From NCBI GenBank assembly GCA_014237465.1, contig JABZFM010000002.1:1-64000 (forward strand): 64,000 bases of DNA, given 5' to 3'. Below are positions 399 through 16,884 of this stretch, piece after piece. A program made the position numbers and the translations under genes. Below the pieces are notes generated by a model that made no database searches, was not told the origin of the DNA, and saw nothing but the letters and a program-made list of their open reading frames with translations. Position 1 is the first letter of the stretch; each line of letters begins with the position of its first letter. The stretch is from Desulfobacteraceae bacterium (GTDB taxonomy: Bacteria; Desulfobacterota; Desulfobacteria; Desulfobacterales; Desulfosalsimonadaceae).

Positions 399-772
399 GG
401 ATAATTCCTTGTAATAACAGTTAATATTACAAATCGCCGCGAAAATTTTTACTTGTTTGTCAAGAAAAAAGTTGCCATCGTATACATTTTTTTATTTAAT
501 TTTTAACTGCTTATGCAAAAACCTAACCGGACAGTGCTGAAAACTTTTAGGATCAGGTCTCTTTTTACTTTTCACAAAAATCTCATAAAAAATTCATAAA
601 ATTATCGATTGTTAAGAAATTAATGCAGATCAGTGCATAATTAGTCACAAATTATAATTCTTTAATCATTATATTGATTTTACAGATTATTCCGGTTATA
701 GTAGCGGAAAATAAATCCTTTCTTAAGATTCCCCCATGAACATCAACAAATGGAGGTGAATGTCTAAAACAA
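399..772. other. Intergenic region upstream of the dehydrogenase operon
   Basis: No gene is visible in this AT-rich stretch. It holds a TATAAT hexamer at 653-658 that could be the -10 of the downstream operon, but no good -35 lies 16-18 bases before it. A short inverted repeat (ATGCA at 623-627, TGCAT at 634-638) sits where the -35 should be, which would suit an activator or repressor site. A GGAGGTG at 752-758 precedes the first gene of the operon. The regulatory reading is inference only. Confidence 0.35.
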
Positions 773-1801
773 ATGAAATCAATGGTTTTGAATAAAATCT
801 GCAGCCTGCATGACTGCAAAACGCCTTTGACCTTCATGGATCTGCCGGAGCCCGTCCCCGGACCGGGGGGAATATTAATCAAAGTCAGTGCCTGCGGCGT
901 CTGTCATACGGAACTCGATGAAATTGAAGGTCGCACCCCGCCCCCCTCTTTTCCCGTGGTACCCGGCCATCAGGTGGTCGGGCGTGTTTCGGCAATCGGA
1001 AAAGACTCCCGAAAATTCAGCATAGGGGACCGGGTGGGCGTGGCCTGGATATTTTCAGCCTGTGAAAAATGCAAATTCTGTGTCAGCGGCCATGAAAACC
1101 TGTGCCCGGTTTTTAAAGCCACGGGCCGGGATGCCAACGGCGGCTATGCTGAATACATGACAGTTCCTGAAAAATTCGCCTACCCAATGCCAAAAACCTT
1201 TTCCGATGCCCAGGCCGCCCCCCTCTTATGCGCCGGGGCCATCGGATACCGATCCCTGAAACTGACCGGTCTCAAAGACGGCGGCAACCTGGGGCTGACC
1301 GGGTTCGGCGCGTCTGCCCATCTGGTTTTAAAAATGGTCCGATACATTTACCCAAGTACGAATGTGTTTGTATTTGCACGAAATGAAAAGGAAAGATTGT
1401 TTGCAAAATCACTGGGTGCGGTATGGGCCGGAGACACGGACGATCAGCCGCCGGAACTTCTGGATTGTATTATCGACACCACCCCGGCATGGAAACCGGT
1501 TGTCGAGGCCTTGAAAAACCTTGACCGGGGCGGACGACTGGTCATCAATGCCATCCGCAAGGAAAGCTCGGACAAAAATTATCTTCTGAATCTGGATTAC
1601 CCCTCACATCTCTGGATGGAAAAAGAAATCAAAAGTGTTGCCAATGTGACTCGAGCGGATGTTTTCAAATTCATCAATCTTGCCGCGGAAATGCATATAA
1701 AACCCGAAGTCCAGGAATATTCTTTGAACGAGGCCAACCAGGCGCTCGTTGATCTCAAAAGTGGAAAAATCCGGGGGGCAAAGGTACTGCAAATCAGTTA
1801 A
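773..1801 (+). CDS. Zinc-dependent alcohol dehydrogenase family protein
   Basis: This 342-residue protein has the usual length of medium-chain zinc alcohol dehydrogenases. Catalytic zinc ligands are visible as C44 (GVCHTE), H66 (PGHQVVG) and probably C153. The structural zinc loop has C97, C100, C103 and C111 (CEKCKFC...C). A Rossmann nucleotide-binding segment lies near residues 174-182 (GLTGFGASA). Position 67 is Gln where many relatives have Glu. It would oxidise an alcohol or reduce an aldehyde with NAD(P), in the cytoplasm; the substrate is unknown. The ATG at 773 was chosen over the one at 782 because it lies closer to the GGAGGTG at 752-758. It leads an operon of five same-strand genes. 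Confidence 0.85.
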   Translation: MKSMVLNKICSLHDCKTPLTFMDLPEPVPGPGGILIKVSACGVCHTELDEIEGRTPPPSFPVVPGHQVVGRVSAIGKDSRKFSIGDRVGVAWIFSACEKCKFCVSGHENLCPVFKATGRDANGGYAEYMTVPEKFAYPMPKTFSDAQAAPLLCAGAIGYRSLKLTGLKDGGNLGLTGFGASAHLVLKMVRYIYPSTNVFVFARNEKERLFAKSLGAVWAGDTDDQPPELLDCIIDTTPAWKPVVEALKNLDRGGRLVINAIRKESSDKNYLLNLDYPSHLWMEKEIKSVANVTRADVFKFINLAAEMHIKPEVQEYSLNEANQALVDLKSGKIRGAKVLQIS

Positions 1802-1850
1802 CCTTTAATTCACTTACCATTACAAAAACTTCTCATATAAGGAAAAAACA

Positions 1851-2762
1851 ATGAAAAAAGCCTCTCAGTATAAATTTTCAAAAACCGCTTCTGACTTTAC
1901 AAGCAAAAAAATCCGCTGCAGCGGAGAGCTGTATCTGCCACAAGATATTCAAAACCCTCCGGTTGTGGTCATGGCCCATGGGTTTGGTGCGGAAAGCACA
2001 TTCGGCCTGCCTGCCTATGCTGAAACCTTTGCCTCAAGCGGCCTGGCGGTCTACCTGTTTGATTACCGGTGTTTCGGCACAAGCGACGGCGAACCCAGAA
2101 ACTATGTGGACCAGGGACGCCATTTACAGGACTGGAAATCAGCCATTGCCCATGTCCGATCCCTACCTGACATTAATACGAATAAAATCGCCCTGTGGGG
2201 CAGTTCATTCAGCGGGGGGCATGTGATTGTCACCGCAGCCAGAGACCATGATATATCCGCCATAGTCTCACAAGTACCGTTTGTCGACGCCATATCAACA
2301 ACTTTTAAGCTTGGGTTCAAATATCTCATGCAGGCCACCCCCCATGCCATTCGCGATCTTTCGCGACTCCTGACGTTTCGTTCTCCCTATTATGTTAAAG
2401 TAATCAGCCAACCCGACGAGTTCGCCATTATGAACACCCCGGAATCATATCCCGGCTATTCATCCTTGATCCCGAAAGGTTCCAAATGGGAGAACAAATG
2501 CCCGGCCCGGATTCTTCTCAGGTTCGGCACTTACCGTCCCATTGCGGTGGCAGATAAAATCAGGTGCCCGGCCCTGATCATGCTCGGGGAAAAAGATTCA
2601 TTGCTCGATGCCCGGGCGGTGGAAAAAACCGCTAAAAAAATACCAAAGGGAGAACTGGTGAAATATCCGTTCGGTCATTTTGATATTTATACCGGCAACG
2701 CGTTTAAAGAAGCAGTGAAACGGCAGACGGAATTTCTTCTGGCCCACTTAACCACTGAATAA
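1851..2762 (+). CDS. Alpha/beta hydrolase (dienelactone hydrolase-like)
   Basis: This 303-residue protein has an alpha/beta-hydrolase fold. The oxyanion strand reads VVVMAHGFGA at 38-47, the nucleophile elbow is GSSFSGG at 117-123 (Ser119), and the remaining triad residues are probably Asp249 (LGEKD) and His276 (FGHFD). There is no signal peptide, so it should act in the cytoplasm on an ester, thioester or lactone that cannot be named. The gap to the preceding gene is 49 bases and to the next about 29, so it is probably co-transcribed with the acyl-CoA ligase. A thioesterase-like role in recycling CoA esters is possible but is inference. Confidence 0.8.
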   Translation: MKKASQYKFSKTASDFTSKKIRCSGELYLPQDIQNPPVVVMAHGFGAESTFGLPAYAETFASSGLAVYLFDYRCFGTSDGEPRNYVDQGRHLQDWKSAIAHVRSLPDINTNKIALWGSSFSGGHVIVTAARDHDISAIVSQVPFVDAISTTFKLGFKYLMQATPHAIRDLSRLLTFRSPYYVKVISQPDEFAIMNTPESYPGYSSLIPKGSKWENKCPARILLRFGTYRPIAVADKIRCPALIMLGEKDSLLDARAVEKTAKKIPKGELVKYPFGHFDIYTGNAFKEAVKRQTEFLLAHLTTE

Positions 2763-2791
2763 ACGACCATCTTTATTTAAGGAGGATGACC

Positions 2792-4459
2792 ATGGACGAA
2801 AAAAGCTGGCACAAGTCTTACGCGCCGGGAGTCAAACCGTCACTGACGTATGACACAACAACCGTGTCCCGGGCATTGTCACGATCGGCAAAAAATTTCC
2901 CCGACCATTCCGCCTTAAATTACATGGGCTGCATCATCTCCTATAAAAAACTCGAATCCATGGTCAATGCCTTTGCCAGGGCGCTGACGGATATGGGAAT
3001 CAAGCCGGGCGACAAGGTGGCGGTGTGCTTGCCGAATATTCCCCAGGCGATCATTGCCAACTACGCCATTTTCAGAATCGGCGCAGTGACGGTTCTCTGC
3101 AACCCGCTATACACGGAGCGCGAGCTGGCATATCAGCTCAATGATTCGGATTCCAGAATTATCGTCACTCTGACGCTGCTCGTACCGCGCATTGAAAAAA
3201 TCCAATCCCGGACAAAAATCGAAAAAATCATTGCCTGTCATATTCATTCCTATCTTCCATTTCCTAAAAAACAGCTGTTTCCGTTGGTCAAAAAGGAGAT
3301 GTATCGAAAAATATCACAAACCGATAATGTAAAAATCTTTAAAGATATCATCAAGGGACAACCGGATGGCCCGGTCGAAGATCAGAGCCAATGGGAAGAA
3401 ACCGGCGCGCTTTTATATACCGGCGGCACCACCGGGGTCAGCAAGGGAGTCATGCTCACCCATTCAAACCTGAGCTGCAATGTGCAGCAGTTTATCGCAT
3501 GGTTCCCGGATCTTCAGAAAGGTGAAGAAAGCCTCGTCGGCAATTTTCCTGTGTTCCATTCCGCCGGATTTACGGCCATCCAGAACTTCTCCCTGTGGCA
3601 GGCATATGAAATCATCCTTGTGCCCCGCCCGGAACCGGCCATCAACATCGAAATTCTCAAAAAATACAAACCCACATTCCTTCCCGGCGTCCCCACCATT
3701 TTTGTCGGCCTTCTGGCGGAACCGGAGTTTCGAAAACTCAATTTTTCATCGGTCAAGGGATTTTTCTCCGGCGCCGCGCCTTTGGCAGCCGACACCATCC
3801 GGAACCTGAAAGAGCTGACCGGTGCAGACATGTGCGAAGTATACGGGTCCACGGAAAACTCGCCCATTGTTTCGGTCACGCCGTGGGGCGGCAAAATCAA
3901 GCCCGGGACTGTCGGCTGCCCGGTACCGGACACGGATGTCAAAATAGTAGACATTGAAACCGGTGAAACAGAAATGCCAAAGGGCGAAACCGGTGAAATT
4001 ATCATCAAAGGGCCCCAAATTATGAAAGGCTATTACAAAAAACCGGAAGAGACCGCCAACGTCCTCAAGGACGGCTGGTTTTATTCCGGTGATATCGGCA
4101 AATTCGACGAAGACGGCTATTTAACCATTGTGGACCGGAAAAAAGACATGATCATTGCCGGCGGCTACAATATCTATCCGGTGGAACTGGATAATGTGCT
4201 GTTTGACCACCCCGGGATTTTAGAAGCCTGCACCATCGGCGTACCGGATGAGTACCGCGGTGAAACCGTTAAAGCCTTTATTGTGCCCAAAAAAGGGGAA
4301 CAGCTCACAGCCGAAGAGGTCATTGCCTATTGTAAAAAAAATATGGCTGCATACAAGATCCCCAAAAAAATCGAATTTGTGGAAGAACTGCCCAAAAGCG
4401 CGGTGGGTAAAATCCTGAGAAGAGAACTCAGGGATATGGAACTTGCAAAAACAAAATAA
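2792..4459 (+). CDS. AMP-forming acyl-CoA ligase (long-chain fatty acid-CoA ligase family)
   Basis: This is an ATP-dependent carboxylic acid-CoA ligase of the AMP-binding (ANL) superfamily, 555 residues and full length. The core motifs are present: the P-loop-like LLYTGGTTGVSKG near residue 210, YGSTE near 355, YSGDIG then DRKKDMIIAGGYNIYP near 430-455, and the C-terminal catalytic lysine in PKSAVGKILR. The ATG at 2792 is preferred over 2786 because GGAGG at 2781-2785 lies 6 bases before it, while 2786 directly abuts that site. It would activate an organic or fatty acid in the cytoplasm, feeding the adjacent dehydratase-type enzymes. The substrate cannot be read from sequence. Confidence 0.88.
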   Translation: MDEKSWHKSYAPGVKPSLTYDTTTVSRALSRSAKNFPDHSALNYMGCIISYKKLESMVNAFARALTDMGIKPGDKVAVCLPNIPQAIIANYAIFRIGAVTVLCNPLYTERELAYQLNDSDSRIIVTLTLLVPRIEKIQSRTKIEKIIACHIHSYLPFPKKQLFPLVKKEMYRKISQTDNVKIFKDIIKGQPDGPVEDQSQWEETGALLYTGGTTGVSKGVMLTHSNLSCNVQQFIAWFPDLQKGEESLVGNFPVFHSAGFTAIQNFSLWQAYEIILVPRPEPAINIEILKKYKPTFLPGVPTIFVGLLAEPEFRKLNFSSVKGFFSGAAPLAADTIRNLKELTGADMCEVYGSTENSPIVSVTPWGGKIKPGTVGCPVPDTDVKIVDIETGETEMPKGETGEIIIKGPQIMKGYYKKPEETANVLKDGWFYSGDIGKFDEDGYLTIVDRKKDMIIAGGYNIYPVELDNVLFDHPGILEACTIGVPDEYRGETVKAFIVPKKGEQLTAEEVIAYCKKNMAAYKIPKKIEFVEELPKSAVGKILRRELRDMELAKTK

Positions 4460-13338: not shown

Positions 13339-14151
13339 TCATCTGCCCGGCAGTTTTTTGATATAACGCCCCGGGACCGGCGTTACGCGGGGCAGCTTGT
13401 CCAGGGGATTCTCATCCACCAAAAGCGGGCATCCGTAAACCGCTTCCAGGGTTTTGTATGTCAGAACACCTCCCGGCGGGCCGACCTTTACCAGCTCTCC
13501 CTGGTTGATCAGCATCAATGTATCCGCATATATGGCGGCAAGATTCACATCATGGGAAACCATAATCACCGTGATACCTTTTTCCTGCTTCATTTTTTCC
13601 ATCATGTCCATAATTTTTAACTGATGGGCGATATCTAAGGAAGCGGTTGGTTCATCCAGCACAATAATATCCGGATCCTGACATATAGCCCGCGCAATAA
13701 AAACCCGCTGGCACTCACCGCCGCTTAACTGATTTAATCTCCGACCGGCAAGGTGACCGACTTCCGTGAACTTCATGGCCTGTTTTGCCAGATTGATGTC
13801 TTTACTGGATTCCAGCCCGAATGTCCCTAAGTGCGGGGACCGGCCGAACAAAACCACATCAGAAACAATAAAAGGAAAATCAATCGAAACCTGTTGGGGT
13901 ACAAAGGCAATCTGCCGGGCCAGTATTTTTCGTTTATAATTTTTTATCGGCTGCCCTTTGATCTCGAGTTCACCGCTTTGGTTTTTTATAAGACCGGCAA
14001 TGATCTTCATCAGCGTTGTTTTCCCGGAACCATTGGGGCCGATCACAATAAAAAACTCACCTTTTCTCACAGTGAACGACAAATTATTTAATACAACCGT
14101 TCCATCATAGGAATAGGTCAGTTTTTCAGCTTGAACGGATATTTCCATCAT
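13339..14151 (-). CDS. btuD: Corrinoid/iron-chelate ABC transporter ATP-binding protein (BtuD/FecE-like)
   Basis: This 270-residue ATPase shows Walker A GPNGSGKTT near residue 38, the Q-loop VPQQ, the signature LSGGECQR near 142, Walker B IIVLDEP near 162 and the switch His in VSHDV. It would power import by the permease encoded just upstream, whose gene it overlaps by 4 bases (ATGA). The family includes vitamin B12, haem and siderophore importers. The cobalamin riboswitch in front of the operon makes a corrinoid the likely substrate, so the symbol is given by context. Confidence 0.85.
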   Translation of the reverse strand: MMEISVQAEKLTYSYDGTVVLNNLSFTVRKGEFFIVIGPNGSGKTTLMKIIAGLIKNQSGELEIKGQPIKNYKRKILARQIAFVPQQVSIDFPFIVSDVVLFGRSPHLGTFGLESSKDINLAKQAMKFTEVGHLAGRRLNQLSGGECQRVFIARAICQDPDIIVLDEPTASLDIAHQLKIMDMMEKMKQEKGITVIMVSHDVNLAAIYADTLMLINQGELVKVGPPGGVLTYKTLEAVYGCPLLVDENPLDKLPRVTPVPGRYIKKLPGR

Positions 14152-15143
14152 CCCGTCCTTTTCAACAGAAATATAAACACCGGAGCCCCGACTAAAGCCG
14201 TGATAACGCCTGCCGGCATTTCCCCCTGATGGGGAAGCGTTCGGGCCAGCAAATCACACAATACCAGATACGCACCGCCCCCGAATATACAGGCCGGAAC
14301 CAGCACCCGATGGTCCGCCCCGAACAGCAGCCTGAAAAGATGGGGGATAACCAGTCCGACAAACGCCACCAGGCCGCAATAACAGACGGTTGAGCTGACC
14401 ATAAAAGACGTAATGACAAGTAAAAATACAGTGATAAATTTGACATTGACTCCCATGGACAGTGCCATTTCCTTGCCCATCAGCAACAGATTCATTGAAT
14501 TGGAAAAACAGAAAATAACCACGAAACAAGGCAGCAGCATGATTCCCATGAGCAGGGCTTCGCTTTTACCGCCGGATGAAAGATCGCCCATGAGCCAAAA
14601 CATAATATTATGAATTCTTGCATCCTGGGTCAGGGAAATTAAAAACATGATCACCGCAGAACAGAACGCATTCACCATCACCCCGGACAGCAGCAGGGAC
14701 TCTTTTTTAAGCAGCGTTTTTCCGGTTGAAATGAGCAGCACCAGAAACAATGTTCCCATGCCGCCTAAAAAAGCAAACATGCTGACTCCCGGAAACCGGG
14801 AAAGGTTTAACAAAATCCCGGCAATGGCGCCGATGGCAGAGCCCCCGGAAATACCCAGTATGTAAGGTTCAGCAAGTGGGTTCCTCAGTAATGCTTGAAA
14901 AACAAGGCCTCCCAAAGACAATGTTGCGCCGACCATAGCAGCAATCAGGACCCGAGGAAAACGAATTTTCCAGATGATTGTGTAATACAGGGAGTTGGGA
15001 TTTCCAATACTTTCGATTGTTTCAGCAAAAGATCGGATTCCTGTTCCCGAGGACCCGAAGCAAAGTCCTAAAACCATCACGCCGGCCAGAAAAAAAAACA
15101 TGATGACGGAAACCGCAATTATTTGTTTTAAAACCGCAGACAT
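14148..15143 (-). CDS. btuC: Corrinoid ABC transporter permease (FecCD/BtuC family)
   Basis: This 331-residue inner-membrane protein has about nine to ten hydrophobic segments and the FecCD signature RFPRVLIAAMVGATLSLGG near residue 60, followed by NPLAEPYILGISGG near 90 and the CGLVAFVGLVIPHLFRLL coupling region near 255. It would form the translocation pore with BtuD. It follows the binding-protein gene by 18 bases and overlaps the ATPase gene, so the three are translated from one messenger. Confidence 0.87.
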   Translation of the reverse strand: MSAVLKQIIAVSVIMFFFLAGVMVLGLCFGSSGTGIRSFAETIESIGNPNSLYYTIIWKIRFPRVLIAAMVGATLSLGGLVFQALLRNPLAEPYILGISGGSAIGAIAGILLNLSRFPGVSMFAFLGGMGTLFLVLLISTGKTLLKKESLLLSGVMVNAFCSAVIMFLISLTQDARIHNIMFWLMGDLSSGGKSEALLMGIMLLPCFVVIFCFSNSMNLLLMGKEMALSMGVNVKFITVFLLVITSFMVSSTVCYCGLVAFVGLVIPHLFRLLFGADHRVLVPACIFGGGAYLVLCDLLARTLPHQGEMPAGVITALVGAPVFIFLLKRTG

Positions 15144-15161: not shown

Positions 15162-16076
15162 TTAAAATTTGGCTGATTCAAAATTTAATTCCGGATGTAT
15201 CAATCGAAGCAAAGCTTCCAGGCCTTCGATGAGACGGGGTGTCGGACGGTCAAACAGATCGGAATCGACAAGAAATATCCGGTCATTTTTCACCGCCGGA
15301 ATATTCGGCCACTGCTTCCATTTTGACTTTACCTGATCAAATACTTTTTTCCTGGCCATGGACGTGATGATAATGATGTCCGGCCCGGTAACAACGATGT
15401 CTTCGGTTGAAAATCTCGGGTATGATGTATACTTCTCTGCCAGATTGACGCCTCCGGCAATTTCGATCAATTCATGAATAAATGTATCCGCTCCGGCCGA
15501 CACAATCGGTGAAATGCCGATCTGAAAAAAAACCCGGGGCTGATTCTCAGCTGTTGCTGCCAACTGCCGGATATAATCAATGCGAGATTTCATTTCCCCT
15601 GCCACGCGATGGGCTCTTTCAGACGCCTGCAGCAGTTCTCCGATTTCAAGAACCGTTGACTGAATCGATTCAAGACTTCTTGGATTGACCGCATATACCG
15701 GAATTCCTAAGGATTCAAGGCGCATGACAATCTCTTTGGGATTACCGTCTTTTATGCCGATACAAAGATCCGGTTTTAAAGAAACAATCTTTTCCAGATC
15801 CAGATAAACATAAGAACCGACTTTAGGAAGCTTTTGTGCTTCTTCAGGAAAGTCACTGTAGGTCGTTGCCCCTTTCAACCGATCTTCACAGTTAAGATCA
15901 TAAATTATTTCCGTGATACTCGGCGCCAGAGAGACCACCCGTTTCGGTGCTACCGGCACGTCAACGGCCCGGCCGGTTTGATCTACCATTAATCTTGCAT
16001 CCGCCGATATGACCATAGATGTAAAAAACAGCAGGAGTCTCCCGATAAAAAATATCGCAGTTTTTTGTTTAAGCAT
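15162..16076 (-). CDS. btuF: Periplasmic corrinoid-binding protein (BtuF-like)
   Basis: This 304-residue protein has an N-terminal signal peptide (KQKTAIFFIGRLLLFFTSM, cleavage probably after ISADA), then the TroA/BtuF fold: RVVSLAPSITEIIYDL, LPKVGSYVYLDLEKIVSLKPDL and, late, FDRPTPRLIEGLEAL. The ATG at 16076 was chosen because upstream codons back to 16166 run into a palindromic repeat and add a second hydrophobic segment; GGAG lies about 9 bases before it. It delivers substrate to the permease. No outer-membrane receptor such as BtuB is in the window. Confidence 0.83.
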   Translation of the reverse strand: MLKQKTAIFFIGRLLLFFTSMVISADARLMVDQTGRAVDVPVAPKRVVSLAPSITEIIYDLNCEDRLKGATTYSDFPEEAQKLPKVGSYVYLDLEKIVSLKPDLCIGIKDGNPKEIVMRLESLGIPVYAVNPRSLESIQSTVLEIGELLQASERAHRVAGEMKSRIDYIRQLAATAENQPRVFFQIGISPIVSAGADTFIHELIEIAGGVNLAEKYTSYPRFSTEDIVVTGPDIIIITSMARKKVFDQVKSKWKQWPNIPAVKNDRIFLVDSDLFDRPTPRLIEGLEALLRLIHPELNFESAKF

Positions 16077-16103
16077 TATTGATGTCTCCGTAAAAAGTAA
16101 CAG

Positions 16104-16230
16104 GATGGCTAAGTTGAAAGTTCCATATACAAGGCGTAGTGGCTTTTCAGGCTCGAAATAATACAAGTCGTATCTTGAGTACCTGAAAAAACACTACATC
16201 GCAGTAAATGGGACTTTTTACGACGCCATC
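16104..16230. repeat. Dispersed palindromic element, copy 2 (GATGGC...GCCATC)
   Basis: Bounded by GATGGC (16104-16109) and GCCATC (16225-16230). It has ACAAGGCGTAGTG on the left and CACTACATCGCAGTAAATGGGACTTTTTACGAC on the right, which are partly complementary. It lies in the transcribed leader between the riboswitch terminator and btuF, so it would form a long hairpin in the messenger. Confidence 0.6.
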
Positions 16231-16231
16231 A

Positions 16232-16269
16232 ATAAAAAAATCCCTAAGCCATGACACGACTTAAGGATT
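16232..16269 (-). terminator. Intrinsic terminator of the riboswitch expression platform
   Basis: On the minus strand AATCCTTAAG pairs with CTTAGGGATT (10 base pairs, one G-U) around an 11-base loop and is followed by a run of T. It lies after the cobalamin aptamer and before btuF, the expected place for ligand-controlled termination. A competing hairpin at 16316-16340 (TTAATTCG against CGAATTAA) lies just upstream. Confidence 0.75.
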
Positions 16270-16344
16270 GCACCCGGTTTCTTCATCCTTATATATGGAT
16301 TTAACAGTTCGGTGGTTAATTCGCTACCACGACGAATTAAACCC

Positions 16345-16662
16345 ATCCACCCGGCAGGTCTTCTGGTTTGTGAATCCTCCTAGTAACCGCGCCTTCCCAT
16401 TTTACTTCGTGCCCGACCGAAAACCGCCAATTTTTCCAATTTCTGCGTTGGGCTCAAATTTCAATCCTCAAAATACTAAATGTATTCCTCCGGGTAAAAT
16501 TTTCGCCCGCCTTGAACTTTAAAAAATTTTCAGGTTTTCGTTCAGACACTCCAAATATAAAACAGTGGCATGATACGGTGTTCGTCCTCACTTACAGCGG
16601 CGGGACCACGACGGATTTTCACCGTCTTCCCTTTTAAGCCTGAATCGGCACCCGGCGAATAA
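16345..16662 (-). promoter_or_regulatory. Cobalamin (AdoCbl-type) riboswitch aptamer with an internal insertion
   Basis: Read on the minus strand the conserved blocks occur in order: GGGTGCCGA; GGGAAGACGGTGAAAATCCG then CGTGGTCCCGCCGCTGTAA; GCCACTG; GGGAAGGCGCGG; and the B12 box AACCAGAAGACCTGCC. These match the cobalamin riboswitch consensus as I know it. GCCACTG and GGGAAGG, normally joined by a short stem-loop, are about 170 bases apart because a palindromic repeat sits between them. The short stem sides TTTTAT and GTAAAA are still present. Binding of a cobalamin should favour the terminator at 16232-16269 and repress btuFCD. Confidence 0.88.
16409..16549. repeat. Palindromic element inserted in the riboswitch loop
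   Basis: About 141 bases with imperfect terminal inverted repeats of about 28 bases (GTGCCCGACCGAAAACCGCC at the left, complement of GTGTCTGAACGAAAACCTGA at the right). A short copy with the same left arm (one mismatch in about 26) and a similar right arm occurs at 41207-41252. It has no coding capacity and looks like a non-autonomous mobile or REP-type sequence. Confidence 0.72.
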
Positions 16663-16691
16663 TATTTAATCTATTTTTCTTAACTTATCAA

Positions 16692-16721
16692 ATATTTCCT
16701 AAATTTATCCCTTGATGTCAA
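16692..16721 (-). promoter_or_regulatory. Candidate promoter for the riboswitch-btuFCD transcript
   Basis: On the minus strand a perfect TTGACA (16721-16716) is followed after 18 bases by AAATAT (16697-16692), about 35 bases before the first riboswitch block. The -10 is weak, so the call is tentative. Confidence 0.4.
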
Positions 16722-16884
16722 CCCCAAAGATATTTTAACGCCTGTCATTATTGCAAAGATTGCATTAAATCATGTAAACCAACAGTAAACCAACGTTTCT
16801 CTTGAAAAAAATTAAATAATGGCATATTATTATTAAAATTTGCAACATACTATATGAACTATACTTCAAGGCGGTTAAGGGTTA

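Follow-up and report, generated by a model that had tools for sequence, protein, structure and literature searches.

A palindromic repeat of 143 bp interrupts a cobalamin riboswitch on the minus strand of the window analysed here, a stretch of 64,000 nucleotides (positions 1 to 64,000) of contig JABZFM010000002.1 from a Desulfobacteraceae bacterium (assembly GCA_014237465.1). We consider it highly probable that an element resembling a miniature inverted-repeat transposable element (MITE) was inserted at the tip of the P10/P11 arm (in its apical loop, L11) of a class-I-type switch that lies ahead of a btuF-btuC-btuD-like import operon and that, judged from its sequence, is predicted to bind adenosylcobalamin (AdoCbl).

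The interrupted aptamer and an insert-free relative

The cobalamin covariance model (RF00174, gathering cut-off 31.5 bits) matched the window RNA, insert included, at 97.6 bits (E 4.1e-23) over the whole model (positions 1-189 of 189; coordinates of the features are in Table 1), a score that places the RNA within this family. In the alignment, 154 nt were looped out between CCACUGUUUUAU and AAAUGGGAAGG, and standard pairs were present at 42 of the 48 model pairs. The RNA also has a feature of class I, a peripheral arm with the conserved GCCACTG / GGGAAGGC internal loop, both blocks of which are paired. An earlier note on this DNA had placed a cobalamin aptamer on this strand and had named the failure of a covariance search to recognise it once the insert was removed as an outcome that would speak against it; the model recognised the aptamer both with the insert present and in an insert-free relative. 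The element itself did not emerge as a known RNA family, as within 16060-16720 only RF00174 exceeded its cut-off, and the three further Rfam hits in this interval (E 0.19-0.71) were far under theirs.

The relative came from a btuF search in named genomes, which yielded 13 related loci (Desulfobacteraceae, Desulfobacterales, Desulfococcaceae and Deltaproteobacteria metagenome-assembled genomes); Rfam found eight cobalamin matches in seven of them. In one of these loci (L111, from the Desulfococcaceae metagenome-assembled genome SF_100_bin68) the aptamer scored 116.4 bits, lacked the element and had CCACTGTTTCACGTTAAGTAAAATGGGAAGG at the insert point. Its loop, TTTCACGTTAAGTAAAAT, is 18 nt long with flanks nearly identical to those of the window, where the loop consists of CCACTGTTTTATATTTGG, the element and AAGTAAAATGGGAAGG, and the window sequence minus the insert was 93.5% identical to L111 over 185 nt. 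Thus, a near relative has the same aptamer minus the element, which indicates an insertion in the window, and the expectation of the earlier note that relatives would have an empty site rather than an unrelated long loop was borne out. The length of L11 varies across the order, and one could therefore suppose that the long loop is ancestral to this riboswitch. We regard this as scarcely credible, because L111 has 18 nt between near-identical flanks, because the inserted sequence recurs at dispersed sites and its family has target duplications, and because the four cases described below precede different kinds of gene in four families.

The insert site is the apical loop of the CCACTG...GGGAAGG stem, in line with the peripheral position first proposed for it, and the corresponding loop of L111 is short. 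According to the passages of PMC5359240 that were available, conserved nucleotides take part in the internal loop J10/11-J11/10, metal binding is listed both in this loop and at P11, and AdoCbl is suggested to induce contacts between P10-P11 and J6/3. In the accessible part of PMC4436661, an arm P7-P11 is named, and CCACUGGCCCGAAGGCCGGGAAGG in the crystallised 4GXY sequence is this arm closed by a short loop. By analogy with PMC5359240 and the 4GXY sequence, from which we infer the stem numbers used for the window, the element would lie in L11, beyond the part of the arm that makes the contacts.

A different palindrome was seen in two loci, L101 (2552-2776) and L117, which represent one contig. 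Here the orthologous aptamer carries a palindrome of ∼40 nt elsewhere, between the first small hairpin and GGGAA. Its 15-base arm was absent from the window even when one mismatch was allowed, and none of the remaining 235 of 237 loci contained it exactly; the status of the palindrome as a repeat is therefore unsupported.

The palindromic element and its copies

The palindrome reported in the earlier note was confirmed by folding, the stretch 16400-16565 reaching -52.2 kcal/mol (z -4.94), a value that none of 200 shuffled sequences attained. A simple repeat finder, which accepts only arms that match almost exactly, listed no inverted repeat in 16200-16800. The consensus of the element ends in AGTG...CACT, while the window copy ends in AGTG...CAC with its final T changed to G (16408). 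The alignable repeat in the window covers 16409-16550 (142 bp), and most of the 47 aligned copies have the extra terminal T. Thus, the repeat is where it had been placed, at 16409-16549 with 141 bases, but the actual copy is slightly longer (16408-16550, 143 bp).

We searched the genome of the same organism (5.09 Mb, 70 contigs) with 16405-16553 (149 bases) and obtained 25 matches, 15 of which, the window copy included, spanned at least 112 bases; here and below, matches per genome are those among the matches listed and do not stand for total copy numbers. The 14 other long copies were 76-93% identical to the window element, and the family was found in 43 of the 60 genomes searched, this one included. 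Target duplications were sought in 55 loci, 40 from genomes of the same genus or family and 15 from the organism's own genome, with orthologues between genomes kept in. These contained 53 near-full copies, in 35 of which both ends could be placed by a fixed rule. A perfect 4-nt duplication flanked 16 of the 35 copies, always of the form ANNT, and at least three bases matched in 25 of 35, as compared with 10% and 34%, respectively, for mis-paired flanks. When the flanks were shifted by 1-8 bases, at most one perfect duplication was seen, and a shift of 2 gave 12 copies with at least three matching bases. The family is therefore short, present in many copies and bounded by terminal inverted repeats and target duplications, as MITEs are, and by these features the element is MITE-like; it is probably non-autonomous. 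Its other long copies and the duplications of the family also uphold the idea of a mobile-like repeat with which the earlier note had begun.

A parent transposase would be expected to be bounded by the end sequence AGTGNCTGAACGAAAA. At one locus (L207, ∼498-3356, genome G004), the genes between two convergent 16-base ends, which lie ∼2.9 kb from each other, code for a histidine kinase and a response regulator; no transposase is among them, and the sequence beside the ends is unlike the 143-bp element.

Four occupied L11 loops and their predicted folding

To survey L11, we used the pattern CCGCNNCTGTAA-N15..45-CCACTG-N140..170-GGGAAGG in 389 genomes of the order. It matched in four genomes, that of the window (G000, family f1), G038 (f4), G260 (f24) and G324 (f22), and the reversed control gave no match. 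All four loops of 140-170 nt hold the same element family in one orientation, in the form of two subfamilies with homologous cores. The window loop was 76-82% identical to the other three over 95-111 nt, which is the core, as the ends belong to the other subfamily, and the inserts of G038, G260 and G324 were 78-84% identical to each other over 127-157 nt. This second subfamily has the ends GAGACCTTTG...CAAAGGTCTC and gave 47, 16 and 26 matches, fragments included, in G038, G260 and G324, respectively. Among its near-full copies of the G038 type, a perfect 5-nt duplication was present in 13 of 21 and at least four matching bases in 18 of 21 (mis-paired flanks, 4 and 21 of 420), and the G038 riboswitch copy has a perfect 5-nt AGTCC duplication inside the aptamer. 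With its insert, the G038 riboswitch gave a full RF00174 match of 103.3 bits.

The genes behind the four riboswitches are of different kinds: a btuF-like gene in the window, two genes for TonB B12-receptor-like proteins and one cobT (TIGR03160, 421 bits). For the receptor-like genes, both truncated by the limits of the locus, TIGR01779 was the best model, below its curated cut-off. No match to the long-loop pattern occurred in the remaining genomes sampled from the genera of the four hosts (10, 9, 6 and 3). In the genus of G038, 21 cobalamin matches were found in 10 genomes, that of G038 being the longest at 335 nt and the next 243 nt. We take the four cases as independent insertions, with an orthologous empty site for the window only. 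The same pattern with a loop of 5-35 nt gave 375 matches in 204 of the 389 genomes and one control hit; 5-35 and 140-170 nt were the two length ranges surveyed. A looser pattern applied to the whole phylum matched in 10 of 395 genomes as against 14 control hits, and of these G000, G038 and G723 alone looked like riboswitches (the first 80 bases of each match were inspected, and the entire stretch in the case of G723). Taken together, L11 in this order seems to be a place where such an RNA is able to grow.

Palindromic inserts of other sequence were also noticed in L11. Genome G053 has two, of 99 and 60 nt (L113 618-899 and L118 599-834), and the G053 insert sequence had 15 matches in that genome, the two riboswitch copies included; others occur in G046 (75 nt, L114 546-799) and in G723 (L162). 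In L133, from G260, a second aptamer-like stretch with an inverted repeat was seen by eye in tandem behind the first aptamer and before the TonB receptor gene. Cobalamin riboswitch matches can be numerous in one genome (15 in G020, 9 in G196).

As the site is the tip of a hairpin in all four cases, the element might target hairpin loops in the way some insertion sequences target palindromes. This we consider improbable, since the joined flanks of 52 copies folded no better than mis-paired flanks (-4.2 versus -3.8 kcal/mol, p 0.34) and no Rfam family reached its cut-off in any of the 40 loci searched among the 54 that hold other copies; hairpin targeting was rejected as an explanation on the flank comparison.

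Can the aptamer fold around such an insert? The earlier note had held that the core could, and the predictions are on its side. In the window, the element altered 1.66 of ∼60 aptamer pairs and its reverse complement 9.07. The mean pairing probability of the model pairs was 0.629 both with and without the element, that of the P10/P11 helix was 0.97 with and 0.98 without it, and 0.62 of the 143 element bases is expected to pair outside the element. When 46 sister copies were placed in the window aptamer, the median number of changed pairs was 2.17 in the sense orientation (maximum 40.5) and 9.70 in antisense, while shuffled inserts gave a median of 18.1 (n = 60) and random 143-nt pieces of the window 35.6 (n = 60). 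In G260, the element altered 0.49 of 65.4 pairs. Random pieces equalled or beat the element in 1 of 50 trials in the window, 0 of 50 in G038, 0 of 50 in G260 and 6 of 50 in G324, and the reverse complement was clearly more disturbing only in the window and G324. In prediction, then, the pairing of all four riboswitches suffers less from the element than from the median random piece, and in two of them the element is nearly harmless; the broader proposal of harmless folding in all four was dropped, because 12-18 pairs change in G038 and G324.

In the mechanism that we propose, a MITE-like element would have transposed into the L11 apical loop of the P10/P11 arm. The insertion would be tolerated for two reasons: L11, as the distal tip of the arm, would lie beyond the contacts (J10/11, P11), and the strand that is transcribed would fold on itself (∼-52 kcal/mol), lengthening P11 and not competing for aptamer pairs. 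The switch would keep AdoCbl binding and terminator control. Because transcription has to pass through 143 nt more between the 5' and 3' sides of the arm, any effect may be kinetic, so that the receptor would be completed later with its fold kept; the change in folding speed raised in the earlier note likewise stands as a hypothesis.

Several observations weigh against this reading. The window aptamer scored 18.8 bits under that of L111, a difference that may include an insertion penalty. Single-strand folding, which omits the ligand-bound junction, gave several model helices a probability no higher than 0.26 whether or not the insert was present and thus says little about the ligand-bound state, and the element altered 12.4 of 57.8 pairs in G038 and 17.6 of 53.7 in G324. 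With respect to mobility, no target duplication was recognisable around the G260 riboswitch copy, and no parent transposase was found among the matches listed when the 16-base element end was searched in five genomes. The window copy, whose last base is changed, lies outside the set of 35, and its flanks match at one of four positions (TTGG on the left); its right flank AAGT, taken together with TTAAGTA in L111, fits the ANNT rule, and a copy in another species (L202) has a perfect AAGT duplication. Finally, Rfam found no aptamer in the btuF leader of L099 (∼2560-2760), where the terminator region is kept, or upstream of 1387 in L100, where only the stretch behind the aptamer is kept, and control of the operon thus appears dispensable among relatives.

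The last point raises the question of whether the riboswitch is dying: the element would have abolished or impaired its control, and the leader would be following those of L099 and L100 towards loss. These are two of the closest btuF relatives, and the window leader also holds a second repeat. On the other hand, all aptamer blocks are kept in the window, the G038 riboswitch retains its full match around its insert, and the window element is at least 7% divergent from the other long copies of its own genome and 5% from its nearest counterpart elsewhere, so that the insertion is probably not fresh. We therefore consider a dying switch rather unlikely, although less so than the targeting of hairpin loops.

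A further possibility is that the element has been co-opted and its structured strand tunes the switch as a delay, a pause or a processing site, which would account for the single orientation of the four L11 copies. In nearly all copies (46 of 47 of the window type, 21 of 21 of the G038 type), the more stable fold is that of the strand transcribed in the riboswitches. On this strand, single-transition departures from Watson-Crick pairing favour G-U over A-C (42:16 cells in the window type and 43:3 in the G038 type; counted by pairs, 15:13 and 14:3), and eight pairs were changed on both sides, a modest excess over shuffled (1.7) and slid (1-5) controls. Such strand preference and covariation are a slight sign that the element is under selection at the RNA level. 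Yet the cells in the G-U and covariation counts are not independent events, and the other strand of the window type, in its own structure, shows a similar G-U excess (32:12 cells; 12:9 in the G038 type), which leaves the bias clear in the G038 type only. Moreover, a shared orientation in all four cases would arise by chance with a probability of 1/8, the antisense strand was clearly more disturbing in only two of the four cases, and away from riboswitches the element shows no sense bias (by crude gene calls, both neighbouring genes were co-directional with it in 12 of 53 copies and both opposite in 21 of 53). Co-option thus seems doubtful, slightly more so than a dying switch. A related proposal, in which L11 is a recurrent landing place, the orientation is fixed because the transcribed strand is a self-contained hairpin and the insert acts as a delay or pause element that alters the timing of ligand sensing, is put forward as speculation, with about the same low probability as a dying switch.

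The leader, the operon and known systems

Table 1. Coordinates of the features of the riboswitch leader and the operon in the window
Feature	Position	Strand	Basis
Cobalamin riboswitch aptamer RF00174, interrupted by the element	16336..16670	(-)	Covariance match and model pairs
143-bp palindromic MITE-like element, more stably folding strand in sense	16408..16550	(-)	Repeat alignment
5' side of P10/P11 stem holding the element in its apical loop (putative names)	16560..16569	(-)	Fold prediction
3' side of P10/P11 stem	16391..16402	(-)	Fold prediction
AAGT, putative right-hand target-site remnant	16404..16407	(-)	L111 has TTAAGTAAAAT here
Hairpin resembling an intrinsic terminator, with a T run after it, downstream of the aptamer	16239..16269	(-)	Terminator scan, 14 pairs
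Possible hairpin AAGGAT / ATCCTT, loop GAAGAAACCGGGTGCA, candidate P13/L13	16263..16290	(-)	Read from sequence; presumed role
Second palindromic repeat, other family, between terminator and btuF	16085..16235	(-)	Own-genome search
BtuF-like substrate-binding protein gene under the riboswitch	15162..16076	(-)	BtuF model 2.4e-43, PF01497
BtuC-like permease gene	14148..15143	(-)	Two top models BtuC, below curated cut-offs; PF01032
ABC transporter ATPase gene, BtuD-like by position	13339..14151	(-)	PF00005; NCBIfam leaves substrate unsettled

Co-directional genes related to B12 follow the aptamer, namely the BtuF-like, the BtuC-like and the ATP-binding cassette (ABC) ATPase gene, and no Btu model reached its curated cut-off; the BtuF model score of the first protein was tied with that of the TIGR04281 binding-protein model. 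The terminator-like hairpin behind the aptamer provides an expression platform, and the terminator scan detected no terminator-like site inside the element on the minus strand. The candidate P13/L13 hairpin and the terminator have their 3' side in common. By reading of the sequence, the loop of the candidate P13 contains CGGGU, a potential pairing partner for AUCCG in L5. When the leader was folded by minimum energy, the terminator formed in place of this hairpin. Taken literally, a ligand-stabilised pairing of the P13 loop would prevent termination; the candidate hairpin as drawn (16239-16303) would be an antiterminator, which is an unexpected direction for a B12 switch. The second repeat of the leader had at least 40 matches in its own genome (40 of 186 candidates scored) and lies in the leader with its less stable strand in sense (this strand was the more stable in none of 12 copies); sequence resembling it was seen by eye in L111 and L100.

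The window RNA resembles RF00174 and the class I AdoCbl aptamer in all model positions, the core blocks, the P10/P11 arm, the terminator behind it and the B12-import-like genes; it differs in its L11, which holds a 143-bp element in an order with 375 matches at 5-35 nt and four at 140-170 nt. The closest parallel by description is with the Rickettsia palindromic elements, for which the part of PMC2229807 that was available, citing Ogata et al. 2002, reports locations in transfer-messenger RNA (tmRNA) and RNase P RNA genes. These too are palindromic repeats, of 105-146 bp, inside structured RNA genes and with a possibly neutral effect. Unlike them, the element studied here occurs in unrelated bacteria, its host in the window is a ligand-sensing mRNA leader, and one loop is occupied in four lineages; the Rickettsia elements are thus an analogue by description only. 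Bacterial MITEs, as described in the accessible part of PMC10969869, may form riboswitches or terminators and share with our element the short length, terminal inverted repeats, target duplications and many copies, whereas our element lies inside a riboswitch and has one strand that folds more stably. We found no report of a mobile repeat within a riboswitch aptamer in the open-access literature searched, which is a weak negative, as subscription journals were outside its scope. What appears to be new is that one element family occupies one riboswitch loop in four lineages, before different genes and with a matched empty relative for the window.

Thus, several natural insertion experiments are available at one position of a well-studied aptamer, and the case in the window has a close insert-free relative. 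If the switches work, they would reveal which loop of a riboswitch tolerates an extra 140 nt and would provide matched pairs for testing the effect of added transcription time on ligand sensing. They would also suggest a rule by which mobile elements may enter a structured RNA without breaking it, namely through a distal loop and with a strand that folds on itself.
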